Source: an uncultured Bacteroidales bacterium (GTDB lineage Bacteria; Bacteroidota; Bacteroidia; Bacteroidales; Muribaculaceae). Taken from it: a stretch of DNA of 64,000 nt. Positions 19,338 to 54,365 of the stretch are shown one piece after another. Position 1 is the first letter of the stretch, and each line of letters opens with the position of its first letter. The stretch covers positions 1 through 64,000 of the forward strand of contig CACZAC010000026.1 in NCBI GenBank assembly GCA_902779125.1, in the 5' to 3' direction. The position numbers and the translations under genes are program-made. The notes below the pieces were generated by a model, which had not been told where the DNA came from, ran no database searches, and worked only from the letters and a program-made list of their open reading frames with translations.

Positions 19338-20492
19338 TTAAAAGTACCAGGGGTGGTTCTTGAGGGCGGTGATGCCCTTGGTTCCCACCATGCCCTTGAT
19401 GCGGCTGGCGCTCAACGGGGAATAGAGATAGGGATAGTCACTTGCCGTGGGAATCAGGCTGTTGATTTTGACCTGTCCCGAGCAGTGGATGTACTTGCCG
19501 TCGCGCAGGTAGATGCCCACATGCGTCACGCGGCCCGTCTTCTCGTTGCCGAAGAACAGCAGGTCACCGGTCTCGTACTGGCGCCAATCGGTGCCCTTCT
19601 TCATAATCTTGCCCGTGAGAGCCTGCTGTGAAGCATCGCGCTGCAAGATGATGCCGTTGCTCAGGTAGCTCACCTTGGTCAGTCCCGAGCAGTCGGTCAC
19701 CTTGGTCGTAGTGCCGCCCCACAGGTAGCCGGAGCCCAACATGCGGCGTGCCGTCTTCTCGATTTGGGCAGCGTTGAAGCCCTGGCGGCTCCACTGCGCG
19801 AGTTCGTCAACATCGGCGGCATCGACCCAGCCTACCCTACCGTCGGGCGTGGCGAGTTTTATCCATTTTCCCTGTGTTGCCTTGAATTCCAAGATGTTAC
19901 CCATCACCAGGTCGCTAACGGTCTCATCACCGCCAGGCATGGACACCAGACGCGAGTCATAACAGGTAACGATGTAGCGCTTGGCCTTGCGCCAGGCCTT
20001 CATCTGCGCCTCGGTCTTGAACGACAGCGAACTCTCGGGGACATAGGCGATGTAGTCATCGGCCATCTGGACGCGGTACCAGTCGTCGCACTTCTGCAAC
20101 ACCTTGACCGGGGAGCCCATGATGCCCTGTGTGGCCATTTCGGCACTGTGCTTGGGCTCGGTGCGCAGGGTAGCGATGCTCAGTTTAATCAAAGCCCACT
20201 TGCGGGAAGCGGGAATGCCGTCCTCGAGGACGGTGATTTTGTCAATATAGTTGCGGTTGGCGCTCTTGAGCATGGCGGCCAGGATGGCCTGCTTCTGTGC
20301 CTTGGTGCCGACCGTTCCGGCAAGCACCCATCTGCCGTTCTGTTGCTTTGCTGTCACATCCCAGATTGCGGTACGCTTGTCGGGAGCAATGCGCTGCTTG
20401 AGGTCGTTCAGCGCTTCGACAGGTGTCACTGCCATGGCAACCAGTCCCGTCATGGCCAATGCCACTGCCAATAAGATAGATTTAACGTTCAT
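19338..20492 (-). CDS. NlpC/P60 peptidase with SH3-type domains (gamma-D-Glu-diamino acid endopeptidase-like)
   Basis: The protein has 384 residues from the ATG at 20492, which is followed by a signal peptide (NVKSILLAVALAMTGLVAMA). This ATG overlaps the upstream stop codon as ATGA, a sign of coupled translation. Two bacterial SH3-like domains (about 95-160 and 170-230) precede the NlpC/P60 domain. The catalytic residues are Cys268 (TDCSG), His324 (VTHVG) and His336 (YIHCSG). The family cuts the bond between D-Glu and the diamino acid in muropeptides, releasing L-Ala-D-Glu. That product is the substrate of the epimerase encoded next, so the pair makes a pathway. Confidence 0.92.
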   Translation of the reverse strand: MNVKSILLAVALAMTGLVAMAVTPVEALNDLKQRIAPDKRTAIWDVTAKQQNGRWVLAGTVGTKAQKQAILAAMLKSANRNYIDKITVLEDGIPASRKWALIKLSIATLRTEPKHSAEMATQGIMGSPVKVLQKCDDWYRVQMADDYIAYVPESSLSFKTEAQMKAWRKAKRYIVTCYDSRLVSMPGGDETVSDLVMGNILEFKATQGKWIKLATPDGRVGWVDAADVDELAQWSRQGFNAAQIEKTARRMLGSGYLWGGTTTKVTDCSGLTKVSYLSNGIILQRDASQQALTGKIMKKGTDWRQYETGDLLFFGNEKTGRVTHVGIYLRDGKYIHCSGQVKINSLIPTASDYPYLYSPLSASRIKGMVGTKGITALKNHPWYF

Positions 20493-21913
20493 TTCTTTAT
20501 CGGTGTTATTGAATTTACTTTCAGATGGCTGTCCCACTTGTCATAGAACAGGTTACCCTTGCGCCACTCGACTTCACCAGGCTGGAAATCGACGGTCTCG
20601 CTGCGGATGAAGGTCTTGGGCGGGCTCAACTTGTCGCCCACGCCCTCGTTGGTCGCCATGCGGTACACGTCGATGCCCGTGGCATAGTAGTCATTGAGCG
20701 CGGTACCCACGGCGCTGCGGCCGAATGACGGGTCGGTGGGAATCCAGCCGATGCCCTCAAAGTAGGTCTCGCACCAGTCATGCCAGTTGATTTCGTCGGG
20801 ATGCAACATCCAACCGCTTTCCCAGCGTGCGGGAATGCCCAGCGAGCGCACCAGCGTGATGTAGAGCAGTCCCACCTGACCGCAGTCGCCGTGATTGTTC
20901 TCGATGACATACTGCGGAATGTTGGCGAGGGTGCTGTACTCACGTGCGCCAGCCCACGGCAGGTTGTAGCCTATCCATTCATAGATTTTGGCAGCCTGCT
21001 TGACGGGATTGGTCTCATTGCCCACAATCCTGCGTGCCATCGCCCTGATTTCGTCGGTGATGATGACGTGGCGAGGCTCGTTGCCCGTATACCTGATGTA
21101 TTCAGGGCTCTTGGTGTTATAGGGCTCCAGCATGGCGATGAGGTCCTGCTGGCTATAGTGGCGCTCTCCCACATCGTAGGAGAAGGTGTATTCAAAGTGG
21201 GTGGGTTTGCCTTTCTCGGCCACGGCCTCCATATAGACGGTGTGGTGCTGGCTTCCCTGGCTGAAGGTCACCGGGCGGTTGCTGCTCTCGAGGCGGATAT
21301 TCTTCTGCCGCAAGTTCTCGTAGGGGAACGGCATCCACACGCGCAGCGTCTCGCCGGCGGGGACGGCATCGGCATCCACGTCGAGGGTGAAGGTGATGTT
21401 CATGCGGCGCCAGTCGCGCACGTTGTTTGCATCGGCAGGGGTGCGCATGGCCTCCAGGTAATACTTGCGTCGCGTGAGGAAACTCTCGTGGTTGTCGGCG
21501 GCATTCTGGGCAGCAAATTCCTTGCCCAGCAGCCACAGGTTGCCCACGCTCTTGCGGAACCACATCTCCTTGCCGTCGATGTTCATCACCTCGAGGGCGC
21601 GGGTGCGTTTCCAGTTCTCGATTTGGGCATCGGTAGCCTCGGGCATCTTTTCGCGAATCATTTTCACGCCCTCCTCGGGGGTGATGCGGAAGTCGGTGCG
21701 TATGCGTTGCATGATGGTGCGCAGCGAGTCGATGCGCACGGCATCGGCTTGACGGACTTTCTTGGGCAATGCCTTCATCACTTTCTCGGCACGGGCAAAT
21801 TCGCCCTGGGCAATCAACTGGTCAACCTGGGGTTGCCAGTCAGGTGTACCTGCGGCTCCCGACAGTGCCAAAGCACTCATAGCCAACGCCAACAAATGTT
21901 TCTTTATCTTCAT
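20489..21913 (-). CDS. Secreted transglutaminase-like (papain-fold) protein
   Basis: The 474-residue protein has a signal peptide ending near SGAAG. The N-terminal half is helical then beta-rich and unrecognised; the C-terminal half is a transglutaminase-like domain with the triad Cys344 (HGDCGQ), His378 (WHDWCE) and Asp394 (PTDPSF). Bacterial proteins of this type are usually peptidases or peptide-modifying enzymes. Its stop overlaps the start of the NlpC/P60 gene, and the epimerase follows, so a role in breaking down cell-wall peptides is likely. A TAAATTTG -7 box lies at 21940-21947 on the minus strand. Confidence 0.88.
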   Translation of the reverse strand: MKIKKHLLALAMSALALSGAAGTPDWQPQVDQLIAQGEFARAEKVMKALPKKVRQADAVRIDSLRTIMQRIRTDFRITPEEGVKMIREKMPEATDAQIENWKRTRALEVMNIDGKEMWFRKSVGNLWLLGKEFAAQNAADNHESFLTRRKYYLEAMRTPADANNVRDWRRMNITFTLDVDADAVPAGETLRVWMPFPYENLRQKNIRLESSNRPVTFSQGSQHHTVYMEAVAEKGKPTHFEYTFSYDVGERHYSQQDLIAMLEPYNTKSPEYIRYTGNEPRHVIITDEIRAMARRIVGNETNPVKQAAKIYEWIGYNLPWAGAREYSTLANIPQYVIENNHGDCGQVGLLYITLVRSLGIPARWESGWMLHPDEINWHDWCETYFEGIGWIPTDPSFGRSAVGTALNDYYATGIDVYRMATNEGVGDKLSPPKTFIRSETVDFQPGEVEWRKGNLFYDKWDSHLKVNSITPIKK

Positions 21914-21997: not shown

Positions 21998-22864
21998 TCA
22001 CTTGGGGAACTCCAGCAGGAAGGTGGTGCGAAAACCATAGCGCGGCTCATCCAGCAGCGACATCATGCCGCCCTGGATGGTGAGCAGACGCCGGCTCAGC
22101 GACAAGCCGATGCCGTTACCCTTGCGCTTGGTGGTGAAGAATGGGATGAAGATTGAGGCGCGTGCCTCGGCGGGAATCAGCTCGCCATCATTGCTGATGT
22201 AGAGCAGCACCCTACCCTCCGGTCCCATTTCGCACTCAACGCCCAGGGTCTTGGCGCCAGCCTCAATCGCGTTCTTGATGAGGTTGATGAGAATCTGCCT
22301 CAACAGGTTGGGGTCTGTCTTGATGATGACCTCGTCGGGCAACTGGTTCTGCCATTCCACATCAGGGAACAACTGCTCCACGTCATTGACAGCTGCTATC
22401 AGGTCAACAGCTTTGGGAACGGGTTTCTGCAACTGTGAATACTTGCGATAACCGTCAACAAAGGAGTTGAGATGCACCACCGTGTTGTGAATGGCATTGA
22501 TACCCTCTTCCAGGTCCGAGTCCTTGACCGCAGGGTGATGCAGCATCGACTGGCTGATGCTCGCAATCGGGGCGGTGGCGTTCATAATCTCGTGGGTGAG
22601 CACTCGGGTGAGTTTCTCCCACGACTCCACTTCGCCCAGGTTGACCTGTTCACGGATGTGTTCGCCCAGCTGATTGAGTGACTCCTGCAATGCGCGTTCT
22701 CCCCTGAACATGTGGCGCGTGGGCAGCCTGAACGTCAAGTCATGATTGCGGATGGCCTCCTGCATCAGACGGGCACGTTCTTCAAGCATCCTCTGGTGAC
22801 TCCAGAACCACAAGAGGAACAGCACCACCAGCACGCCAATCACTATCCACGCAGTGATTGTCAT
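21998..22864 (-). CDS. Sensor histidine kinase
   Basis: The 288-residue protein has one membrane segment at the N-terminus (about 5-22) and almost no periplasmic part, so its signal probably comes from inside the cell or membrane. The kinase core is complete: H-box VLTHEIMN with His91, N-box LINLIKNAIEA, G1 ISNDG, F-box IFIPFFTT and G2 GNGIGLSLS. It resembles NtrB-type kinases. The gene overlaps its response regulator by 4 nt (ATGA at 22861-22864), with the regulator upstream. The DNA targets are unknown. Confidence 0.92.
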   Translation of the reverse strand: MTITAWIVIGVLVVLFLLWFWSHQRMLEERARLMQEAIRNHDLTFRLPTRHMFRGERALQESLNQLGEHIREQVNLGEVESWEKLTRVLTHEIMNATAPIASISQSMLHHPAVKDSDLEEGINAIHNTVVHLNSFVDGYRKYSQLQKPVPKAVDLIAAVNDVEQLFPDVEWQNQLPDEVIIKTDPNLLRQILINLIKNAIEAGAKTLGVECEMGPEGRVLLYISNDGELIPAEARASIFIPFFTTKRKGNGIGLSLSRRLLTIQGGMMSLLDEPRYGFRTTFLLEFPK

Positions 22865-23388
22865 TGCAGTCTTTTCATTTTGTTATACAACGTCTGTCGG
22901 GAGATGCCCAACAGATCGGCGGCCTGAGAGAGGTTACCGTGGCAACGGTCGAGGGCACGCCTGATGTGGTCGGCTTCCACTTCGTCGAGTGTCGCCACCT
23001 CATTACTTCTGTCCAGCACGTCCTTCAACTTGCGCACCAGTTCGTCGTTGTCCCAGGGCTTGGTGATAAAATCTGCGGCACCGCGTTTGAGGCCGCGCAC
23101 TGCCAATTGCACGTCGGCATAGGCCGTGATGAGCACGACCGGCAGTTCGGGATGATGCTTGCGTATGGCCTGCAGCCACACCAGTCCGTCCTGACCGCTG
23201 TTCACGCCTAACGTGAAATTCATATCCAGCAGCACAATGTTCACTTCCTCCTGCTCCAGCAAGGTGAGCACCGAGTCGGGTGAAACAAGCGTGAGCACTC
23301 TATCAAACGTTCCTGCCAGGCAATATTTCAACGCTGTGAGAATTGCCTCGTTGTCATCAATGACCAATATTGTTCCGTAGTTCTGCAT
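22861..23388 (-). CDS. Response regulator with receiver and Fis-type helix-turn-helix, no AAA+ domain
   Basis: The protein has 175 residues from the ATG at 23388 (QNYGTILVIDDNEAIL). The receiver domain has Asp11/Asp12, phospho-acceptor Asp55 (VLLDMN), Thr88 and Lys110 (FITKPW). The C-terminal 40 residues form a Fis-type helix-turn-helix (LSQAADLLGISRQTLYNKM). The sigma-54-activating ATPase of NtrC-type regulators is absent, so this is a RegA/ActR-like short form that binds DNA directly. It is co-transcribed with the kinase. An upstream in-frame start at 23430 is possible but lies in less protein-like sequence. Confidence 0.92.
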   Translation of the reverse strand: MQNYGTILVIDDNEAILTALKYCLAGTFDRVLTLVSPDSVLTLLEQEEVNIVLLDMNFTLGVNSGQDGLVWLQAIRKHHPELPVVLITAYADVQLAVRGLKRGAADFITKPWDNDELVRKLKDVLDRSNEVATLDEVEADHIRRALDRCHGNLSQAADLLGISRQTLYNKMKRLQ

Positions 23389-23545: not shown

Positions 23546-24295
23546 TCATTCACCCAGCAGTTGGTCAATCATACCAGTGACATCACCGATGCCGTTGCCC
23601 GCACCATGGTTCTGATTGCTCAGCAGGTTGTCCACCATGGTAGTCACATCGTCAAGGTTCAGCACGCCGTCACTATTGATATCACCAGCAGGCTTACTGC
23701 CATGACCGGTCGAGAGCTGAGGCAAAGGACTTTTTCCACGATAAGTTATGGGTTTTAACAGGTCTTCAAGACTTAAGGTACCACCGCCACTACCAGATCC
23801 AGGCTTAATTGGGCGCTTCACATAACCGCCACTAGAAGTTTCTAGAATTATGTCAATAAACGCGAAATGGTACGCTTTTGCATAGGAAGTATGTCCACCG
23901 CCACTACCGTTTAACAGGTTGTTGACCAAGTCACTCAGAGTAGAGGACACACCTGTACCATCACTTTTGGGAGGTCGAATGGGTTTACCCACATAATTTA
24001 ACGGCTCCTGCAAAAAACTAACGATATTCACATTTTCAAGAGCCCTAAGCCCCAAAGAATCTTTGCTTGTCCAATCTCCAGTGCGAGAAGAGGAGAAAGT
24101 ATTATTAGAAGTTTGCAAACCGGACATTCCGTCATTCGTTCCATTCATTTCTTCGGCAGACGTGCAGATTTTGCCCTTTGCCTGTCCAATCTGCTCCCTA
24201 TTCAACTCATCTGCTGGAGCAACACCCTGCTCCCCTGCCATAGCCGACAGGGTTGCACAAACACAAAACACGGAAATCAATAGTTGCTTTTTCAT
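23546..24295 (-). CDS. Small secreted protein with C-terminal dockerin
   Basis: The 249-residue protein has a signal peptide (KKQLLISVFCVCATLSAMAG), a Ser/Thr/Gly-rich central part with Pro-Arg-Lys motifs (VGKPIRPPK, YVKRPIKPG), and a C-terminal dockerin-like pair (AGDINSDGVLNLDDVTTMVD, then a shorter second copy). No catalytic domain is recognised, so it may be a structural or adaptor protein. Similar Pro-Arg-Lys segments occur in the protein encoded at 27806-29701. The terminator at 23471-23503 ends it. Confidence 0.78.
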   Translation of the reverse strand: MKKQLLISVFCVCATLSAMAGEQGVAPADELNREQIGQAKGKICTSAEEMNGTNDGMSGLQTSNNTFSSSRTGDWTSKDSLGLRALENVNIVSFLQEPLNYVGKPIRPPKSDGTGVSSTLSDLVNNLLNGSGGGHTSYAKAYHFAFIDIILETSSGGYVKRPIKPGSGSGGGTLSLEDLLKPITYRGKSPLPQLSTGHGSKPAGDINSDGVLNLDDVTTMVDNLLSNQNHGAGNGIGDVTGMIDQLLGE

Positions 24296-24942: not shown

Positions 24943-24973
24943 CAAATTTATATAGGCTACAGAAATTTGTCAA
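24943..24973 (-). promoter_or_regulatory. Promoter of the collapsed protease gene
   Basis: On the minus strand, TTG (24971-24973) and TAAATTTG (24943-24950) are 20 nt apart. The layout is the same as at the intact protease promoter (27479-27509), which shows common descent. Confidence 0.75.
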
Positions 24974-24998: not shown

Positions 24999-25040
24999 GT
25001 GTCAAAATTTTTGACACTAAAGTGTCCAATTTTTTTACAC
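24999..25040 (-). promoter_or_regulatory. Tandem palindromic operator, copy 1
   Basis: Two 19-bp sites, GTGTCAAAATTTTTGACAC (24999-25017, a perfect palindrome) and GTGTCCAATTTTTTTACAC (25022-25040), have a 23-bp period. The nearer site ends 25 bp from the -33 box, the position of an activator site. The same arrangement occurs at 27535, 30433 and 54324. Confidence 0.75.
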
Positions 25041-25125: not shown

Positions 25126-27420
25126 CTATTTAATCATCAGTTTAGCGGTCTTTTCTCTAATCCTGACGATATAAACGCCACTTGCATTGACAGGAATCTC
25201 GTTACGGCCCGCTTGGAGGTTGACACGCTGGGCACGACCTGAGATATCGCTGATGATTGCTTCCTGGCCCACTGAGCTCTCGATGATGATGCTATGACCG
25301 TCGGCATAAATTCTTGAATTCATCGCCAATTCATTCACGCTAGAAGTACGATTTCCATTTGCGGACTGGATACCGCCATTAATGAGTTCTTCATTACCAT
25401 CCTCGATTCCACCCTCAGGCTCAACGGAGCTAATCATTACTGGCTGGTTTTTTGCATAACTCAGAGTGATGGTCTTTGAAGGTGCACTACCACCGCTAAT
25501 CACAACTTGAGCGGTTGCTCTCTGGAGATTATTGGGAACATTACAAAGGACAGAAACGGTAACACCACTGGCTGCTGCGGACGCAGTGATTGAAGTTTTA
25601 CTAAGAGTGAAGTAACTCTTTCCTGTACCCTTGATGATCAGCGTTAGATTACCTGTTAAGTCAGAACCCGTAACTTTGAATGATTTTGAGATATTTTTAT
25701 CGAAATTTAATGAACTGACACTGGTCGTGATAAGAGGAACTATACATTTGCCAGTTAAGTTGACTTTTTTGTCTGCGGCACTGCCACCTTTGATGGTCAA
25801 GATTGCGTTGTTTGTACCTTTAGCTGTTGCTTTATAAGTCACAGTCACAGTCTTGCCTGCTTTAGCTTCTGCTGCTGTAATGGTTGTTGGACTGACCGTA
25901 TAGTAAGAACTATTTGTTGATAGTGTCAAGCTGCCAGTTAAATTAGTTCCTGTAACCTTGATTGTCTTTGAAACAGACTTGCCTTTTATGACACTGCCAA
26001 ATGCCAACGAAGTGGGACTGGTCGTGATGGTACGGACTACTGAGGTGCCCTTGATGCTAACAGTTTTGTTTGAGGTTAAACCACCTCCGCTGATAGTAAG
26101 GGTAGCAGTCTGTGTACCAGCTGCAGTCGGTTTATAAGTCACTGTAACAGTCGTGCCACTGGTAGCTGCGCTCTTGGTGATACTTGTCTTATTGATTGAG
26201 AATACTCCAGTTGCTCCTGTCAGCTTCAAAGTCAAGTCGCCAGTCAAGTCATAGCCCTTAATACTGATTGAAGCGGTATAAGTTACTCCAACGGTTTTAT
26301 TAGTGAAAGCAACAGGATTAGGATTAATGCTGAGGATTGTCTGGGGGCGCAGATCAACAATCATGCTTTGATTTGAATTATATTTGTATCCGTTACTCGG
26401 ATTAAAAGCATCAAGAGCATAGTATCCATTATAACTACCACTCCAGCCCCAGTTAATATGGTATTTGCTCGAAGAATTATAACCGTCAAGTACAAAAGCA
26501 TGGCCACCATAACCATTGGAATCGTATGCCTGATAATATACTGGATGACCTGCATTGAGCTCGTTTTTTATTTTGGTGTTCCAAGCGCTGACGGTATAAT
26601 TTGCTTTCTTGACAAGTGTTGCACTTGAGCTATAGCTGAACTTATTAACTAAAGCATTACGGGCTGCGTTTTCGTTGGTAACGCCACTTGCATCTTTCCC
26701 GTAGTTCATTTGTACCGACTGACCGGCATAACGCATGAGCCAAGCTACGGCATCGTTAGATGTGCTCCAAGTCAATGACTTACTCGATAGTGCCGTCACG
26801 CTTATTCCAGATTTGGTAGTATAAGCACTCATGGCTGGTGCTGAACTCGGGTATTTCCAATACTGCATTACCTGTGCCATGGCCGTAGCCACACATCCCG
26901 TTAAACAATGATGAGAGCTATTACTATCATATGACGGACAATGATTGTAGTACGGGCTACCTTGGTCCCATTTTGTGGAGAGGAGGGGTGAAACGGAGGT
27001 GGCATTGAAGGATGGGTTGCCCTGGGGCACTTTCTCGACGAAGTACTTGGGGTGGGTTTGGAGGAACTCGATTTCCTCCTTATATACATTAAAGAGGTCG
27101 CGCATACCGCAGGGGATGTCATTGATGTCGAACTGACCTTCACCATAACCGAGGACTTGCTCGGCACGGTCGTCACCTGCAACGATGACATAGCTGTCAC
27201 TTGAATTGAACACATAGAAAACAGGATGCTCCTTTAATTTGCCACTCGGCTCAGCATGAGCTAACTTCAATCCATAGCCTAATGGCTGAGCGTTGAAATG
27301 ACCATTGGCACTGGCAAAACTCTGTGCGATTGCTTGAGCCTTTGATAAATCCACTGGGGCTGCCCATCCTTGAACTGCCAACAGAACAAGGGTAACTAGA
27401 AATAAAATTTTCTGTTTCAT
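25126..27420 (-). CDS. Secreted C10-family cysteine protease with Ig-like repeats and T9SS-type tail
   Basis: The 764-residue protein has a signal peptide (KQKILFLVTLVLLAVQGWA), a propeptide (about 22-135) and a C10/streptopain catalytic domain (about 140-360). The catalytic pair is Cys176 in TGCVATAMAQ and His307 in GHAFVLDG, and the NWGWSG motif is present. Three or four beta-sandwich repeats follow (about 360-650; each with TLTISGG or a similar strand ending and a V(T/S)VTY-type strand). The last 80 residues resemble a type IX secretion sorting domain (GQEAIISDISGRAQ... to KLMIK). It should be an active extracellular protease, made as an inactive precursor. A tandem operator and consensus promoter lie upstream, and a collapsed sister gene lies downstream. 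Confidence 0.93.
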   Translation of the reverse strand: MKQKILFLVTLVLLAVQGWAAPVDLSKAQAIAQSFASANGHFNAQPLGYGLKLAHAEPSGKLKEHPVFYVFNSSDSYVIVAGDDRAEQVLGYGEGQFDINDIPCGMRDLFNVYKEEIEFLQTHPKYFVEKVPQGNPSFNATSVSPLLSTKWDQGSPYYNHCPSYDSNSSHHCLTGCVATAMAQVMQYWKYPSSAPAMSAYTTKSGISVTALSSKSLTWSTSNDAVAWLMRYAGQSVQMNYGKDASGVTNENAARNALVNKFSYSSSATLVKKANYTVSAWNTKIKNELNAGHPVYYQAYDSNGYGGHAFVLDGYNSSSKYHINWGWSGSYNGYYALDAFNPSNGYKYNSNQSMIVDLRPQTILSINPNPVAFTNKTVGVTYTASISIKGYDLTGDLTLKLTGATGVFSINKTSITKSAATSGTTVTVTYKPTAAGTQTATLTISGGGLTSNKTVSIKGTSVVRTITTSPTSLAFGSVIKGKSVSKTIKVTGTNLTGSLTLSTNSSYYTVSPTTITAAEAKAGKTVTVTYKATAKGTNNAILTIKGGSAADKKVNLTGKCIVPLITTSVSSLNFDKNISKSFKVTGSDLTGNLTLIIKGTGKSYFTLSKTSITASAAASGVTVSVLCNVPNNLQRATAQVVISGGSAPSKTITLSYAKNQPVMISSVEPEGGIEDGNEELINGGIQSANGNRTSSVNELAMNSRIYADGHSIIIESSVGQEAIISDISGRAQRVNLQAGRNEIPVNASGVYIVRIREKTAKLMIK

Positions 27421-27478: not shown

Positions 27479-27509
27479 CAAATTTAGACGGGTCGCTGAG
27501 AGTTGTCAA
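27479..27509 (-). promoter_or_regulatory. Promoter of the intact C10 protease gene
   Basis: On the minus strand, TTG (27507-27509) and TAAATTTG (27479-27486) are 20 nt apart. The leader to the start codon is about 50 nt. Confidence 0.8.
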
Positions 27510-27534: not shown

Positions 27535-27576
27535 GTGTCAAATTATTTTACACAAAAGTGTCAAATTATTTTACAC
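27535..27576 (-). promoter_or_regulatory. Tandem palindromic operator, copy 2
   Basis: GTGTCAAATTATTTTACAC occurs twice, identically, at 27535-27553 and 27558-27576, with a 23-bp period. Each unit is a palindrome with one mismatch. The nearer unit starts 25 bp upstream of the -33 box. Confidence 0.8.
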
Positions 27577-30432: not shown

Positions 30433-30474
30433 GTGTAAAAAAATTGGACACTTTTGTGACAAAAAACATTGAAC
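30433..30474 (+). promoter_or_regulatory. Tandem palindromic operator, copy 3, facing the ABC operon
   Basis: GTGTAAAAAAATTGGACAC (30433-30451) is the exact reverse complement of the second site at 25022-25040. A weaker second unit, GTGACAAAAAACATTGAAC (30456-30474), follows at the same 23-bp period. It ends 25 bp before the -33 box of the promoter below, now on the plus strand. Confidence 0.72.
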
Positions 30475-30499: not shown

Positions 30500-30529
30500 T
30501 TGACAAAAGTAGAGAAACCACTAAATTTG
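30500..30529 (+). promoter_or_regulatory. Promoter reading toward the ABC operon
   Basis: TTG (30500-30502) and TAAATTTG (30522-30529) are 19 nt apart. Transcription would start near 30536 and reach the first permease gene (30720) after a leader of about 185 nt. A 13-codon frame starting at 30534 is too short to judge. Confidence 0.72.
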
Positions 30530-30719: not shown

Positions 30720-33137
30720 ATGAAAGAGATCATCAATAACATTATATATATGGCACGTCGTTTCCGACTGGCGACGACGTTCAACATGATAGGTCTGATA
30801 GCGGCGTACGCGTTGTTCTACCTGCTCATGACCCAACTCATCTATCAGGTTACCTACAATCACCGTATCGATGATTATGAGAAGATTTACCGCTTGGAAA
30901 CCGATTATGTGTACAGCGAATGGGCATACAGCGATATGGTATGCCGACCCTTTGCTGATGCGCTGAAACCGCTGCCCGAAGTGGAATCCTATTCTCTTTT
31001 CCAATATGCCGCCGTAGGAGACGACTTGTTTGACTTCAAGAAGGATAGCACCATTATAGAGCTACCATTTACCATCGGCAACAAGGCCGTGGTGAGCACC
31101 TTGACCAAAAGAAAGTTGAGCGGTAGCATCACATTTACTGATAATGACACTTACGGCATTATCATTCCCAAAAGCGTAGCCCTTCAATACTTTGATTCAA
31201 TTGATGTCGCCGGAAAGGAAATGACGCTCTGCTATGATGGTGAAGATTATCTCTACACCGTGCGAGGCGTGTATGAGGATTTCCCCGAGAACTGCGAGTT
31301 CCACAATCGCATCTATAGCTATATGGGTGACCAATTTGCCGACGACATCAACTCCCTGTTCAAGTGCTACGTCAAGTTCAATCGCGTGCCTGACGACATG
31401 GATGCTTTCTGTGAAAAGCTCAAGCAGAGCATCCTGGCAAATCTAGAAGCCAAGAAAGGTGAATATGAAGATGTTCAAGAGTTCAACGACCTCAAACAGA
31501 ATTTCAAAGAAACACGCTTTAAATTGACTCCCATCGGCAAAACTTATTTCGAACACACAACATATACCACCGACGACGGGGCCAAGGGCTATAACGGGAA
31601 TTTCCTGATTCTCGCCCTTGGGTGCCTGTTTGTCATCTTCATCGCCACCATCAATTTCCTGAACTTCACACTTGCCGAAAGCCCCATGCGTGTGCGCGGC
31701 ATCAACACCCGCATAGTGCTGGGAGCCCCGCGACGTTCACTACGCTTGAGGCTGATTGCCGAGTGCATTACTGTGTCGGTCATCGCGTGCATCATGGCGT
31801 TGTTGCTCTGCCAGTTCTTATCCCACTTGCCAGCCTTGGGCGTATTGCTGGAAGGAAACACAAGTGTGGTGAATCACAAATTGCTTGCACTGGCATTGCT
31901 GGGACTATCGGCTATTGTCGGTGTTTTTGCCGGTTTCTATCCTGCCGTTTTTGCCACTTCATTTCCTCCTGCCATTGCCTTGAAGTCCTCATTCGGACTG
32001 ACTCCTCAAGGTGTTAAACTGCGCACAATACTCGTGTGCGTGCAGTTGTTTCTCTCCTTGCTGATGTCCATCTATATTGGAATTCTGCTCCTGCAAAACT
32101 ATCACATCTTCAATTCGGAATACGGTTTTGATACGGACCATATCCTCTCGACGCCCATACCCTATGAAATAGACAACGAAGTGAAGCAGCAATTATGTCA
32201 AGAGCTCAATAAACTTGATGGCGTGGACAATGTCTCGATGGCAGATACTCCACTGGGGTCAACCGATGGCCATAACCTGTTGAGAACGGATATAAAGAAT
32301 CACCGTTTCAGGTATCGCTTCATCGTCACAGACCACAACTACTTGCGAACGATGGGCATCAACGTGACTGAGGGTCGTGACTTCCAGGAAAACGATACCG
32401 CAGCAGTCATTGTCAACCAAACGACACGCAAGCAAATACCTGAGATAAAGCTAGGCACTACCATATCTATCGGAATCGATGAGGAAGCGGGCGACAGTGC
32501 CACAGTCATTGGAGTGTGCGACAATATTCACTATGGCACCATGCGCATCAATAGCGACCAAATTTTCTTTATCATCTACAAACCCTATTACCCATTCCAC
32601 CAATACGTCTTGATGCGCATCGCAAATGATGCCGATAAAACGAGAATTTGTCAGCAAGCCAACGAATTGGTAGAGCATTATTGCGGACCGACCAATGACA
32701 AGGTGGATACCTTTGACGAGATGCTCAAGAAGACCTACCACAATGAGTTCCGCTTCTTCCGTCAGACCTACCTCATCACTATTATTTGCCTGATTCTCAC
32801 CATTATCGGTATCTTCTGTCTCACGATGTTTGAGACCGAATACCGACGCAAGGAAATCGGCATCCGCAAGGTAGCGGGCGCCACGACAGGCGAGATTGTG
32901 TGGATGCTGTGCCGCCACTACGGCATATACATCATTATATGTTTTATTGCCGCAGCACCCATTGCCTACCTCTGTGGCAAGTTAACTATCAACCATTTTG
33001 CTGACCACACTCCTATACACTGGTGGATTTACCCGCTGGCGCTGTTGCTTGTGGGCGGCATCACCATCGGCACCGTTGTGCTGCAAAGTTGGCGCGCTGC
33101 CCGCGAGAATCCCGTCAACAGCATCAAAACCGAATAA
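30720..33137 (+). CDS. ABC transporter permease (MacB/FtsX type), first copy
   Basis: The 805-residue protein has an N-terminal membrane segment (about 20-42), a large periplasmic MacB-type domain, three membrane segments around 295-415, a second such block starting near 435, and three more at the C-terminus (about 680-795). The conserved FtsX loop FETEYRRKEIGIRKVAGATT precedes the last block. These permeases do not usually carry small solutes; they transmit mechanical force to move lipoproteins, peptides or antibiotics. It forms an operon with the ATPase (30 nt downstream) and a second permease. The closely related second copy suggests a heterodimer. A regulated promoter lies at 30500-30529. 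Confidence 0.92.
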   Translation: MKEIINNIIYMARRFRLATTFNMIGLIAAYALFYLLMTQLIYQVTYNHRIDDYEKIYRLETDYVYSEWAYSDMVCRPFADALKPLPEVESYSLFQYAAVGDDLFDFKKDSTIIELPFTIGNKAVVSTLTKRKLSGSITFTDNDTYGIIIPKSVALQYFDSIDVAGKEMTLCYDGEDYLYTVRGVYEDFPENCEFHNRIYSYMGDQFADDINSLFKCYVKFNRVPDDMDAFCEKLKQSILANLEAKKGEYEDVQEFNDLKQNFKETRFKLTPIGKTYFEHTTYTTDDGAKGYNGNFLILALGCLFVIFIATINFLNFTLAESPMRVRGINTRIVLGAPRRSLRLRLIAECITVSVIACIMALLLCQFLSHLPALGVLLEGNTSVVNHKLLALALLGLSAIVGVFAGFYPAVFATSFPPAIALKSSFGLTPQGVKLRTILVCVQLFLSLLMSIYIGILLLQNYHIFNSEYGFDTDHILSTPIPYEIDNEVKQQLCQELNKLDGVDNVSMADTPLGSTDGHNLLRTDIKNHRFRYRFIVTDHNYLRTMGINVTEGRDFQENDTAAVIVNQTTRKQIPEIKLGTTISIGIDEEAGDSATVIGVCDNIHYGTMRINSDQIFFIIYKPYYPFHQYVLMRIANDADKTRICQQANELVEHYCGPTNDKVDTFDEMLKKTYHNEFRFFRQTYLITIICLILTIIGIFCLTMFETEYRRKEIGIRKVAGATTGEIVWMLCRHYGIYIIICFIAAAPIAYLCGKLTINHFADHTPIHWWIYPLALLLVGGITIGTVVLQSWRAARENPVNSIKTE

Positions 33138-33167: not shown

Positions 33168-33842
33168 ATGATACAAGTAAGCAATCTGAAGAAAGTGTTC
33201 AGCTACGGCAACGTCTATACCGTGGCATTGGGCGGAATCAACATGGAAGTTGAAGAGGGCGAGTTTGTCGCCATCATGGGTCCTTCGGGCTGCGGCAAGA
33301 CCACGCTGCTCAACATCCTGGGCTTGCTCGACAATCCCAGCGAGGGCAATTACCTGCTCAACGGTGTCGAGGTGGGGCAACTCAAGGAGAGCCAGCGCAC
33401 CACCCTGAGGAAAGGCAAAATCGGCTTTGTCTTCCAGAGCTTCAACCTCATTGACGAACTGACTGTGGAGCAAAACGTGGAATTACCCCTGAAGTACATG
33501 GGTGTACCCGTCGAGGAACGCAAAAAACGCGTGACCGAGGTGCTGCGCCGCATCAACATCTCGCACCGCGCCAACCATTATCCCAACCAGTTGTCGGGCG
33601 GCCAACAGCAACGCGTCGCCATCGCCCGCGCTGTGGTGTGCAACCCCCAGCTCATCCTCGCCGATGAGCCCACGGGCAACCTCGACAGCAAGAACGGCAA
33701 GGAGGTGATGGAACTGCTCGCGCAGCTCAACGACGACGGCACCACCATCGTCATGGTGACGCACTCGCAGCGCGACGCTTCCTATGCCCACCGCATCATC
33801 AATATGCTGGACGGCTTCCTCGTCGAAAAAACAGAATTATAG
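33168..33842 (+). CDS. ABC transporter ATP-binding protein (LolD/MacB type)
   Basis: The 224-residue protein has all the ABC ATPase motifs: Walker [10 protein letters not shown] (about 42-50), Q-loop VFQSFNL, signature [14 protein letters not shown], Walker [14 protein letters not shown] and the H-loop VTHS. The sequence fits the LolD/MacB/FtsE class that works with FtsX-type permeases. It lies between the two permease genes, so one ATPase dimer presumably drives a heterodimer of the permeases. Start and spacing are clear (30 nt after the first permease). Confidence 0.96.
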
Positions 33843-33855
33843 CCACCTTTAGCGA

Positions 33856-36267
33856 GTGACCGATGCGCTCAGCCATATCGTCCTGACGGCACGACGCTTC
33901 AAATTGCCGACTGCCCTGAACCTGCTTGGGCTCACGGCAGCCTATATGGTGTGCTACCTGCTGCTGACACAAGTCATCTTCCAGCGGACCTACAATCACG
34001 GCATCAAGGACCACGAGCGCATCTACAGGCTGGAGACCGACTTCTTCTCCAACAATGACGTCAAATGGAGTTCTTCTGTCACCCGATTCATGTGTGAGGC
34101 CATAGAACAAATCCCCCAAGTCGAGGGTGTGACTATGACCAGCTACGGATGGGGCGACCTTGATTCCTACAAATGGCAATTCAAGAAGGACAATACAGAA
34201 GTCGCCTACCACTACACACTGTACAACAACAAGGGCCTAACCAACCTTACCGACCGAGTCATCGACGGCAGCATCGAGTGGACTGACGATGACCAGGAAG
34301 GCATCATCATCCCCGCAAGTATCGCCAAACGACAATTCGGAACCGTTAAGGCCGTGGGCAAGCAGATGGTTCATCTGCTCGCCGACAGTGCCGAAACGCT
34401 CACGGTGCGCGGTGTCTTTCAGGACTTTCCCGACAACAGCTTAGCGAAAAATAACATCGCAGTGTGTGTCAAGAATCTGTATGCCAGCACGACGGGCAAT
34501 TTGTGCTTTGAATGCCTGGTCAAGCTCAAGGAGGGGACCAAGGATGTGAACAATCTCGTTCCTGAGATACGCCAACGCTTCCTGACCAGGGTCAGCCGTC
34601 TGTTGAACAATGACACAGCAGAATTGAAACACTGGGAAAGAATCTTCCATCACCTGAAAATCCAGTTAAGGCCACTCGATGACACCTACTTTTCCCAATC
34701 CAATACCAACGACACCGGCAATCGCGATATGCTGTCAATCCTAGAACTGATTGTCTTGCTGGTCATCCTGGTCGCTACCGTCAATCTGCTCATCTTTACC
34801 CTCGCCATCAGCCCAATGCGGGTGCGTGGGACCAATGTGCGGCGCATTCTCGGGGCATCCCGCAACACCTTGAGGTTAGAGTTTGTTGCCGAAACGGCCA
34901 TCACCTCGCTTGCCGCCTGTGCGATAGCTCTTATCCTGTGCCATCTGCTCTCGCTGCTGCCGGCATTCAACCGTTTGTTTGACAGTAACATTGCCTTGAA
35001 TGCCCATTGGGGCATCGTTCTGGCCATGGTAGGCATTGCCTTGGCTGTGGGCCTCGTTTCAGGCATTTACCCAGCCATCTTCACCACCTCTTATGAGCTG
35101 ACCATCGCTCTGAAAGGGTCCTTTGGGCTCACGCCCCAAGGGCACAAGTTGCGCACAGCCTTCATCGGTCTGCAACTGGTCATCACAATGTTTATGTTCG
35201 CCTTTATCTGTACTTTGTACCAGCACACGCGGTTTATCTATCACTCTGACTACGGCTATGACATCAGCCAGTTACTCCACGTGCAACTGACACCCCTGGA
35301 GTCAGATTACCGCTCAGCCTTGCGTAATGACCTGATGACACTGGAAGGGGTGGAAAATGTCTCATACTCCAGATTCATCCTCGGATCAGATGATTATTAC
35401 ATGTCCAACCGCATGGTCTTGGGGAGCGACTCGGCAACATGCGTAATGAATGTCCAGATATTCCCGACCGATGACAGGTACCTGTCCACGATGGGTATCC
35501 AACTTGTTGAGGGCCGAGGATTCAAAGCGACAGACCCTTCTGACAAGTACTGCATCATCAACGAAGCCATGCGTGACCAGTGCAAAGGGCTTAAAATAGG
35601 CGAACTGCTATCACCCAACGAGGACGTCATTGTCATCGGAGTGTGCAAGAACATCAGACATGCCACGACACGCAGGGACAACAACAGTGAACCCATTTTA
35701 TTCGTCAACTCAACTGATGTCCGTTCGTGCCGGTTTGCCAACATCCGCCTCGCGCCAGATGCCGACCACGAAGCCATCAAGTCCATGATTGCCCAGCTCG
35801 TCGAGAAGCATAGCGGGCATGTCTCGGCTCCGGTGATGGACATGGATTCCACACTGCAACAGACCTATAATAATGAATTCAGGTTCATTGACCTCTCCTT
35901 GCTGTTCTCGGTCATCTGCATTATCATCACGCTGGTGGGCGTGTTCTGCCTGACGATGTTTGAGGCCGAGTACCGCCGTAAGGAAATCGGCATCCGCAAG
36001 GTGACTGGCGCCACGACGGGCGAGATTATAGGCATGTTCTGCGCGCAATATGTCACGCTCATCCTCGTGAGCTTTGTCATTGCAGCACCACTGGCTTTCA
36101 TCATCGGCAACAAGTGGCTGAACAGTTTTGCCGAGCACCGCTCCATGGACTGGTGGGTTTTCCCGTTGAGCCTGCTTGTGGTAGGTGGGCTCACCATAGG
36201 CACCATTGTCCTGCAATGCTGGCGCACCGCCCGTGAGAACCCCACCGACAGCATCAAGACAGAATAG
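33856..36267 (+). CDS. ABC transporter permease (MacB/FtsX type), second copy, GTG start
   Basis: The 803-residue protein is a paralogue of the first permease. Its N-terminus (TDALSHIVLTARRFKLPT) aligns with that of the first copy (KEIINNIIYMARRFRLAT), which fixes the GTG at 33856 as the start codon, 13 nt after the ATPase stop. The layout of membrane segments and the loop EAEYRRKEIGIRKVTGATT are conserved. The periplasmic domains differ more than the membrane parts. The substrate is unknown. Both permeases end in ARENP(V/T)(N/D)SIKTE. Confidence 0.93.
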   Translation: MTDALSHIVLTARRFKLPTALNLLGLTAAYMVCYLLLTQVIFQRTYNHGIKDHERIYRLETDFFSNNDVKWSSSVTRFMCEAIEQIPQVEGVTMTSYGWGDLDSYKWQFKKDNTEVAYHYTLYNNKGLTNLTDRVIDGSIEWTDDDQEGIIIPASIAKRQFGTVKAVGKQMVHLLADSAETLTVRGVFQDFPDNSLAKNNIAVCVKNLYASTTGNLCFECLVKLKEGTKDVNNLVPEIRQRFLTRVSRLLNNDTAELKHWERIFHHLKIQLRPLDDTYFSQSNTNDTGNRDMLSILELIVLLVILVATVNLLIFTLAISPMRVRGTNVRRILGASRNTLRLEFVAETAITSLAACAIALILCHLLSLLPAFNRLFDSNIALNAHWGIVLAMVGIALAVGLVSGIYPAIFTTSYELTIALKGSFGLTPQGHKLRTAFIGLQLVITMFMFAFICTLYQHTRFIYHSDYGYDISQLLHVQLTPLESDYRSALRNDLMTLEGVENVSYSRFILGSDDYYMSNRMVLGSDSATCVMNVQIFPTDDRYLSTMGIQLVEGRGFKATDPSDKYCIINEAMRDQCKGLKIGELLSPNEDVIVIGVCKNIRHATTRRDNNSEPILFVNSTDVRSCRFANIRLAPDADHEAIKSMIAQLVEKHSGHVSAPVMDMDSTLQQTYNNEFRFIDLSLLFSVICIIITLVGVFCLTMFEAEYRRKEIGIRKVTGATTGEIIGMFCAQYVTLILVSFVIAAPLAFIIGNKWLNSFAEHRSMDWWVFPLSLLVVGGLTIGTIVLQCWRTARENPTDSIKTE

Positions 36268-52791: not shown

Positions 52792-54192
52792 TTAGTTGCT
52801 GTTGAGAATGATGTCGATGAGAGTGGCGACGTCCTTGATGCTGACCCTGCCGTCATCGTCCACATCGGACCACGTGGACCACTCACACTCGTCAAGCAAT
52901 ATATCAATAATGTTAGCCACATCGCTGATAGAGGCGGTGCCATCATCGTCATCAGTCTGTTCAAAATCAGCGTAATACAGACGATTGTTGCCAAATACTC
53001 CAAACCAGAGCGCTGGATACATCACTCCATTTCCCCATCCAACGCCATTCAGCATGGCTGTGCCCCTAATAGCAGTATCGGCTACAGTGTTTACAGCCCA
53101 TGATATAACCCCATCGGTTACAGTGCCGTAAGTATCGATTGGCTGAGAATTTTCTATCCCGCTCCAGAAATTATAGAACTTGGGAGAACAAATGACGTCA
53201 TCAAAGTTATAACTGCTCACGTCAAACTCACGGATGACCTGGAACGGGAAACGCATCGAACCATCTTCATGTAGGTACATCACGTTACCAATGTGCGATC
53301 CCAATCCCCACAGGTTCATAATCACGCGAGTGGTGTCATCGGCCTGAAACATATATGCATCAGCTTGTTTATCAACATCTTCATCCGTGAATTCATGCTT
53401 GGCGTTAGGTGCAAGCAGGGTCAAGTCACGCAGAATGTATGACGAAAAGGTGAGCGTGTCGGTCGATACCCAATTTCTTTTGTAATAATGACGAATATAT
53501 GCGATATAATACATGATAAAACCGTCTTCAAATGTAATTGAGCCATCATTATACAGGGTGCCATACACGTCATGTGGTTCGGCATTTCGCGTAAAATAAT
53601 CCTCATTAATCATGTACACATTGATCAACGTATCGTTCCAAGAGCCCAGTTCGTATTTTTCGTAATACTTTACACTTCCCAACAGTGTAAATGTCGGCAT
53701 GCGCACACTGTTGTTACTGTAATCGATGTACATTTTATGATCGATACCGTCAAAAATCATATCTTCACAAAACACCACATTGTTCTGGTAACCATTTCTC
53801 TTTTTCATGTGGGTTATCCGTCCTCCACGCTGTCCATAGGGTACCGGTATAACAGTTACCTGGCCATTGTTGTCGTAAGTCCAGTCATACCAGCTGTAGA
53901 AGACGATTTTATCCTTCATCAGAGGGTTGGAGCCAGAAGGGGTCGAGCCTTGCTGGCTCAGACGCTGTCTGACATATGCCAGATTATATGGCGAGGTTAG
54001 AACAGATGTGACTGCTGCATTGCCACTAGACCCGCAGCCACTGACCTGCAGTTGGTCAAGGAAAGTGTTGCTGCGCATGAGCGTGAGTTGGTGGTCGCTC
54101 ATGTTCAACAATTCGGAGCGGTCCACATCCAGGACATCTGCCGTGACGTTAAGGCAAATACTTGCCAAAAAAAAGATGATACAATGTTTCAT
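52792..54192 (-). CDS. Secreted dockerin protein of unknown function
   Basis: The 466-residue protein has a signal peptide (KHCIIFFLASICLNVTA) and a two-repeat dockerin at the end (DDDDGTASISDVANIIDILL and SDVDDDGRVSIKDVATLID). The rest is beta-rich with no recognised enzyme motif. Segments VYGTLYNDGSITFEDGF, LLAPNAKHEF and FQADDTTRVIMNLWG match the protein at 27806-29701, so the two are distant paralogues. Its promoter region has the tandem operator (54324-54365). The gene and its controls lie between a decayed and an intact copy of the start of the methyltransferase gene, which suggests it was inserted there. Confidence 0.82.
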   Translation of the reverse strand: MKHCIIFFLASICLNVTADVLDVDRSELLNMSDHQLTLMRSNTFLDQLQVSGCGSSGNAAVTSVLTSPYNLAYVRQRLSQQGSTPSGSNPLMKDKIVFYSWYDWTYDNNGQVTVIPVPYGQRGGRITHMKKRNGYQNNVVFCEDMIFDGIDHKMYIDYSNNSVRMPTFTLLGSVKYYEKYELGSWNDTLINVYMINEDYFTRNAEPHDVYGTLYNDGSITFEDGFIMYYIAYIRHYYKRNWVSTDTLTFSSYILRDLTLLAPNAKHEFTDEDVDKQADAYMFQADDTTRVIMNLWGLGSHIGNVMYLHEDGSMRFPFQVIREFDVSSYNFDDVICSPKFYNFWSGIENSQPIDTYGTVTDGVISWAVNTVADTAIRGTAMLNGVGWGNGVMYPALWFGVFGNNRLYYADFEQTDDDDGTASISDVANIIDILLDECEWSTWSDVDDDGRVSIKDVATLIDIILNSN

Positions 54193-54267: not shown

Positions 54268-54365
54268 CAAATGTATCATTCTATAACAGATGCGGCCATA
54301 AGTCTTTTCCTCAAAATCAAAAAGTGTCAAATATTTTTACACTAAAGTGTCTAATTCCTTTACAC
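54268..54365 (-). promoter_or_regulatory. Promoter and tandem palindromic operator, copy 4
   Basis: A -7 box TACATTTG (54268-54275, minus strand) precedes the dockerin gene; the -33 box is poor. Upstream lie GTGTCAAATATTTTTACAC (54324-54342) and GTGTCTAATTCCTTTACAC (54347-54365), again with a 23-bp period and about 25 bp from the -33 position. A weak -33 box with an upstream site is typical of activated promoters. Confidence 0.72.

Follow-up and report, generated by a model that had tools for sequence, protein, structure and literature searches.

A tandem palindromic operator and its candidate two-component regulator, an AAA+-less relative of sigma54 activators in Bacteroidales

Four tandem operator boxes were located next to promoters in the window, the whole 64 000-nucleotide stretch of Bacteroidales DNA that was analysed. 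With a probability that we put at about 85%, these boxes are the operators of the two-component system encoded at 21998-23388, which would activate sigma-ABfr promoters in the class-I manner through an AAA+-less descendant of a sigma54 activator. This binder is favoured by the co-occurrence of box and regulator, the adjacency of box and regulator gene, the geometry of the sites, the occurrence of the box at two promoter classes, a single AAA+-less clade, a common recognition helix and common export operons. In rumen bacteria the regulator appears to activate secreted proteases together with an export pump.

Results

Operator boxes in the window

The boxes were found by pattern search of the sequence. 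Their 19-bp palindrome (GTGTnnAAnnnTTnnACAC) is repeated at 23 bp at three window promoters. Two perfect palindromes stand before the C10 protease gene (27535-27576, minus strand) and two perfect units at 24999-25040 (minus strand); the two units at 54324-54365 (minus strand) carry one mismatch relative to the strict pattern, and at 30433-30474 (plus strand) a perfect first unit is followed by a degenerate second one, GTGA-N11-GAAC, with three mismatches. The initial annotation had reported paired sites at these four places, correctly in both coordinates and letters, and had rightly oriented three boxes towards minus-strand genes and one towards a plus-strand operon; its description of each pair as two GTGT-N11-ACAC sites holds for three perfect pairs but not for the second unit at 30433.

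With up to three mismatches, GTGT-N11-ACAC-N4-GTGT-N11-ACAC was matched four times in the window versus 0.23 expected (largest count in 100 shuffles, 2), and the single unit GTGT-N11-ACAC nine times versus 0.88 expected, seven of the nine lying within the four boxes. Across the whole genome of the window the loose paired pattern was non-specific (18 places versus 15 with the reversed control); these 18 places were judged by eye, and the nine with the common AT-rich core were retained and nine discarded. When the core AA..TT was added to the pattern, the reversed control fell to 0 in 41/41 genomes and in 101/101 genus genomes, and outside the genus the core-including pattern was matched in 0/16 genomes of the order.

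Promoters at a fixed distance from the box

The sigma-ABfr consensus has TTG at -33 and TAnnTTTG at -7. Beyond the 27535 box, a -33 TTG (TTGAC) starts at 25 bp (27507-27509, minus strand) and the -7 element TAAATTTG at 48 bp (27479-27486, minus strand). The 24999 promoter has TTG at 24971-24973 and TAAATTTG at 24943-24950 (minus strand), and the 30433 promoter has TTG at 30500-30502 and TAAATTTG at 30522-30529 (plus strand). The 54324 promoter has its -7 element TACATTTG at the usual offset (54268-54275, minus strand) and no TTG at -33, so that the proposed spacing of some 25 bp from box to -33 stands for three promoters and fails for this one.

Three site sets were compiled. Set A comprised 34 sites, nine from the window's genome and 25 from six other genomes, including two beyond the 3-mismatch limit of the strict pattern (the window's 30433 and L036:8512). 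Set B took a single site from each of 19 other genomes of the genus, and set C 31 boxes (up to 4 mismatches, two being register-shifted overlaps) from loci of 22 'Prevotella-type' genomes, a label of our own for genomes whose titles vary. The sigma-ABfr promoter form was found in all three. A -33 TTG with a -7 box started 22-27 bp from the box at 27/34 (A), 15/19 (B) and 25/31 (C) sites, in set A at 24 bp in 18 and at 25 bp in nine of the 27 matches; it was absent from 7/34, 4/19 and 6/31 sites. When both sides were scanned, TAnnTTTG (at least 5 of 6 positions) lay 47-50 bp from the box at 34/34, 19/19 and 29/31 sites, with all six positions matched at 31, 16 and 28, against a background of 0.3-0.6 matches per offset. 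The -33 element is thus less constant than the -7 element. A fixed box-to-promoter distance beyond the window had been set as a test of the claim, and set A upholds it (TTG in 27/34, -7 box in 34/34); spacing across the site sets likewise supports a regulon with fixed operator-promoter geometry, and the suggestion of an activator binding as two dimers fits the geometry of the operator.

The same geometry bears on the reading that the box is indeed this regulator's operator, with the regulator repressing, or only anti-repressing, and activation coming from elsewhere. Of the 13 set C boxes with a regulator start recognised nearby, 12 have a further -7-like box on the regulator side, at 8 bp from the operator. 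The Prevotella-type box looks as if it overlaps the apparent promoter of the regulator itself, whose -33 the operator would then cover, and autorepression is therefore predicted. That arrangement speaks for repression, but at target promoters the boxes lie wholly upstream of -33 at a fixed spacing, which is the layout of an activator, and we consider the repressor reading unlikely.

Candidate regulator and kinase

The predicted regulator is a 175-aa response regulator (22861-23388, minus strand) with a PF00072 receiver (76.6 bits) and a Fis-type HTH, PF02954 (HTH_8, 63.1 bits); no PF00158 AAA+ sigma54-interaction domain was found in it by Pfam. Its predicted cognate histidine kinase (21998-22864, minus strand, 288 aa) has an N-terminal hydrophobic segment and a HATPase_c domain (Pfam), and its nearest NCBIfam model is AtoS. 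The nearest box in the window's own genome, 24999, is 1.6 kb from the regulator gene. A transglutaminase-like protein is encoded directly 3' of the kinase (20489-21913), and in L043, L048 and L055 frames that begin similarly were also seen on the far side of the regulator genes. We propose this two-component system as the binder of the boxes with high confidence, and its regulator very probably binds the paired motif.

Co-occurrence and adjacency of box and regulator

A regulator search (E<=1e-30) matched 28 of 101 genus genomes. Boxes with up to 3 mismatches occurred in 26 of the 101, all among those 28, and in 0/73 regulator-free genomes at the same limit (Fisher 4e-22 over 101 genomes, a value that ignores kinship). 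The two genomes with the regulator and no strict box (G007 and G110) carry a weaker one just upstream of the regulator gene (5 and 4 mismatches, respectively), a looser threshold applied to these two only, the 73 regulator-free genomes having been searched at up to 3. Because the genomes are related, an rpoN tree was built from 95 of the 101 (of the six left out, three had no sigma54 match and three had broken or short ones). All 28 regulator genomes fell into a single 38-genome clade; the other 10 genomes of this clade, all without the regulator, were box-free (57 to 94 percent complete, several of them incomplete). At least six changes were forced; among six independent pairs on well-supported branches the box tracked the regulator in 4.9 on average, showed no difference in 1.1 and went the opposite way in 0 (sign test, p ~0.06). 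The co-occurrence in the genus comes largely from one clade.

For adjacency, the best 80 of 570 regulator matches were fetched as loci; these come from uncultured Bacteroidales, Prevotella, Prevotellaceae, Muribaculaceae and others, and many of their titles name ruminant samples. Of these 80 loci, 70 had a box no more than 800 bp upstream of where the regulator gene starts and 10 had none close by, and the remaining 559 kb of the 80 loci held 14 boxes; several boxes stand just upstream of a divergent response-regulator gene. Boxes were found in 22/22 Prevotella-type genomes (control 0), which had been picked for having the regulator. An order-wide regulator search (295 genomes, E<=1e-45) gave three matches, namely the window's genome, G311 and G393.

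The box could instead be the site of another DNA-binding protein, of Crp/Fnr, LytTR or LuxR type, with the two-component system merely linked or co-inherited. The clade structure of the co-occurrence suits this explanation, as does the fact that genus-wide transcription-factor profiling covered this regulator's family alone; the adjacency of box and regulator gene in 70 of the best 80 loci tells against it, and we regard it as very improbable. NrdR, Crp/Fnr and LytTR sites had been considered and were set aside after the regulator adjacency was found. By Pfam, the candidate regulator has no LytTR DNA-binding domain and has HTH_8 instead.

Predicted target genes

The two-component regulator would serve the following genes in the window. 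Beyond the 27535 box lies a secreted Peptidase_C10 with a Spi inhibitor (I69) propeptide (25126-27420, minus strand), and beyond the 30433 box an operon of an FtsX/MacB-type permease (30720-33137), an ABC ATPase (33168-33842) and a further FtsX/MacB-type permease (33856-36267), all on the plus strand; Pfam confirmed the earlier naming of a C10 protease and an FtsX-type ABC operon as served genes. Downstream of the 24999 promoter, an open frame of 249 aa (23546-24295, minus strand), with no Pfam family above cut-off, falls in the region described earlier as a collapsed C10 sister. The 466-aa protein behind the 54324 box (52792-54192, minus strand), called a dockerin protein, does give a C-terminal dockerin-like match, but a weak one below the Pfam cut-off (9.7 bits versus 22.9), which leaves that assignment doubtful.

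Twenty proteins downstream of boxes were scanned, each the product of the nearest frame of at least 140 aa, at 23-624 bp, a rule and a range of distances that make some target assignments loose. Among them were Peptidase_C10 (3), Peptidase_S8 (1), Peptidase_M16 (2), DUF4932 (1) and an ABC ATPase (1), with BspA-type LRR_5 in seven (one also C10) and dockerin in eight; one had Ig-like families only (L055), and five were familyless (L033, L044, L038, L047 and L051). Some 130 bp past the 8861 box of L035 and the 8534 box of L047, after the promoter and before larger genes, there is a very short hydrophobic frame (28-29 aa; METQVCIVTITMIAIAIITIISTLIMSC and a related sequence).

Some box-linked promoters have no long frame downstream, and an Rfam search of eight loci returned tRNAs only, with no family for frameless transcripts. 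A hairpin-like element (GCCAGGA...TCCTGGCAATGCT) was observed 10 times in 692 kb, each time 31-362 bp from a box, the scanned DNA being itself box-enriched; examples are L040:9279-9364, L043:8552-8612, L050:8194-8306, L053:12731-12823 and L055:11936-12037. Rfam assigned it to no family in the eight loci searched; it may represent an RNA or form the 3' terminus of the frameless transcripts from box promoters.

Copying of the boxes together with their promoters, as part of a mobile or repetitive element, would agree with the common hairpin-like element near some boxes and with the placing of some boxes before related genes (L044 and L051; L041 and L046). The flanks and target genes mostly differ, however, while the operator-promoter spacing is kept, and the same box recurs in other families with another promoter class; we give this explanation almost no credence.

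The box in other Bacteroidales families

The paired palindrome, with a period of 22 or 23, was also found in other Bacteroidales families. An order-wide search at period 22 matched 38 of 295 genomes (reversed control, 11 genomes) and a second order-wide pattern 34 of 295 (reversed control, 18 genomes). Since the stretches were chosen by eye from these noisy lists, the 19 and 22 sites they provided are not a random sample. Period 22 versus 23 did not separate the two types of regulator.

The extension of the TTG/TAnnTTTG promoter rule to related Bacteroidales was contradicted by these sites, at which the same box stands with sigma54-like promoters. TGG[CT]A lay 50-57 bp from the box at 17/19 boxes in 18 stretches of the period-22 list, where 0.04 per site are expected, and 51-54 bp from it at 19/22 boxes in 20 stretches of the second list; it was found at 50-57 bp in 0/34 (A), 0/19 (B) and 0/31 (C) sites, that is 0/84 for the AAA+-less group. 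Conversely, the -7 box lay at 47-50 bp in 82/84 sites of the AAA+-less group, a perfect TAnnTTTG at that distance in 0/19 and 0/22 sites of the other families, and an imperfect match (5 of 6) in 6/19 and 7/22 sigma54-type sites. When sites of both classes are aligned from the end of the box, the -7 TTTG falls at nearly the distance of the -24 TTGG.

A frame of at least 445 aa matching both receiver and HTH was present in 9/18 stretches of the period-22 list, and a matching frame in 18/20 of the second (15 of at least 450 aa, and three shorter ones matching the receiver only); such NtrC-type relatives around other-family boxes argue further against an unrelated binder. The regulators of L171 and L175, both of the relatives tested, consist of receiver, Sigma54_activat and HTH_8 (Pfam), and a sigma54 activation domain in both full-length relatives also tells against the repressor reading. 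Relatives of the window's FtsX/ABC operon were found by BLAST in 12/18 and 12/20 stretches. The L171 operon reads OEP (TolC)-HlyD-ABC (Pfam); in the Prevotella-type L340 the AAA+-less regulator gene and the OEP and HlyD genes are transcribed divergently, and in L344 there are FtsX and ABC genes as well.

Regulator lineage

In a tree of receiver and HTH, 17 AAA+-less regulators formed one clade (support 100/100), nested among AAA+ regulators and nearest L175 and L179 with moderate support. The tree was rooted on a very distant protein that we take to be RteB-like, and the presumed direction of change, loss of AAA+, rests on this very distant root. The helix G[IV][ST]RQTLYNK was found in 6 of the 7 regulators examined from a set of 12 (five AAA+ and one of two AAA+-less) and in the window regulator; in the G393 regulator it reads LYAK. 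Both forms occur in G393 (L335 and L185), where the AAA+-less regulator is accompanied by an NtrC-type one of 441 aa; this genome is a possible intermediate.

Loss of sigma54 was rejected as the cause of the AAA+ loss: its DNA-binding domain was found in 98/101 genus genomes, so that sigma54 loss does not account for the promoter switch. The window's genome retains one PF00158 protein.

Discussion

In the mechanism that we propose, a signal would lead the kinase to phosphorylate the response regulator of 175 aa. The two adjacent 19-bp palindromes, with centres ~70 and ~93 bp ahead of the predicted start, would then each be occupied by a Fis-HTH dimer, and the bound pair would bring RNA polymerase with sigma-ABfr to the -33/-7 promoter by class-I activation. 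The predicted targets are secreted peptidases (C10, S8 and M16), BspA/dockerin surface proteins, ABC/FtsX export operons and some frameless transcripts.

As to origin, the best reading of the sequences is that the regulator lost its AAA+ motor and the operator was retained, while the promoter passed from sigma54 to sigma-ABfr type. The ancestor would have been a sigma54 activator of NtrC type, from which the AAA+ domain was lost a single time; the -24 element ~53 bp from the box would have been replaced by a -7 box at 48 bp, whose TTTG would now stand about where the TTGG of -24 stood. We lean, on balance, towards a fuller course of events in the Prevotella/rumen lineage, in which the AAA+ motor was lost once and -24 (TTGGCAC) became -7 (TAnnTTTGCA) in place, at almost the same operator distance, and the regulator then spread to secreted proteases and surface proteins as a class-I activator.

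The system resembles the NtrC family in its receiver and Fis-type HTH, in tandem palindromic operators upstream of the promoter, in a kinase nearest AtoS and in an operator and recognition helix in common with Bacteroidales AAA+ relatives. It differs in a regulator without AAA+, in -33/-7 rather than -24/-12 promoters and in a nearly invariant operator-promoter spacing. RegA/PrrA/ActR of Proteobacteria, which act at sigma70-type promoters, likewise combine a receiver and a Fis HTH without AAA+ in ~175 aa (the NCBIfam model has 173 positions); the window regulator, however, scores 63.9 bits versus the NF033791 cut-off of 250, groups with Bacteroidales NtrC-type proteins in a tree that held no RegA proteins, and is paired with an AT-rich GTGT/ACAC operator.

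A shift of the NtrC lineage to housekeeping-type promoters has a precedent in the NtrC proteins without GAFTGA of Rhodobacter capsulatus and Caulobacter, which act at sigma70 promoters and keep a changed AAA+ domain (PMC10274813), whereas the domain is absent here. A 2025 paper predicted that FtsX-type ABC operons of Bacteroidia are under sigma54 control, and the target type is that of the AAA+-keeping relatives described here; those promoters are of sigma54 type, and the accessible part of the paper describes neither an operator nor an AAA+-less regulator (PMC12316311). No report of this operator or of the AAA+-less branch of Bacteroidales regulators was found among the best-matching papers of the open-licence literature. 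What appears to be new is a response regulator of NtrC lineage without the motor, whose operator would serve sigma54-like promoters in relatives and the housekeeping type here.

If the promoter switch took place as we read it, regulator and promoters went over to another sigma class jointly, with the operator unchanged. The occurrence of a common recognition helix, a common operator and similar export operons with both promoter classes would make these genomes a natural experiment, with replicates, in the departure of an activator from ATP-driven sigma54 control. For the secreted proteases of rumen Bacteroidales, the analysis provides a regulator candidate and an operator that can be searched for, and the rule that the -7 element starts 47-50 bp from the box can be used to predict more targets from sequence data.
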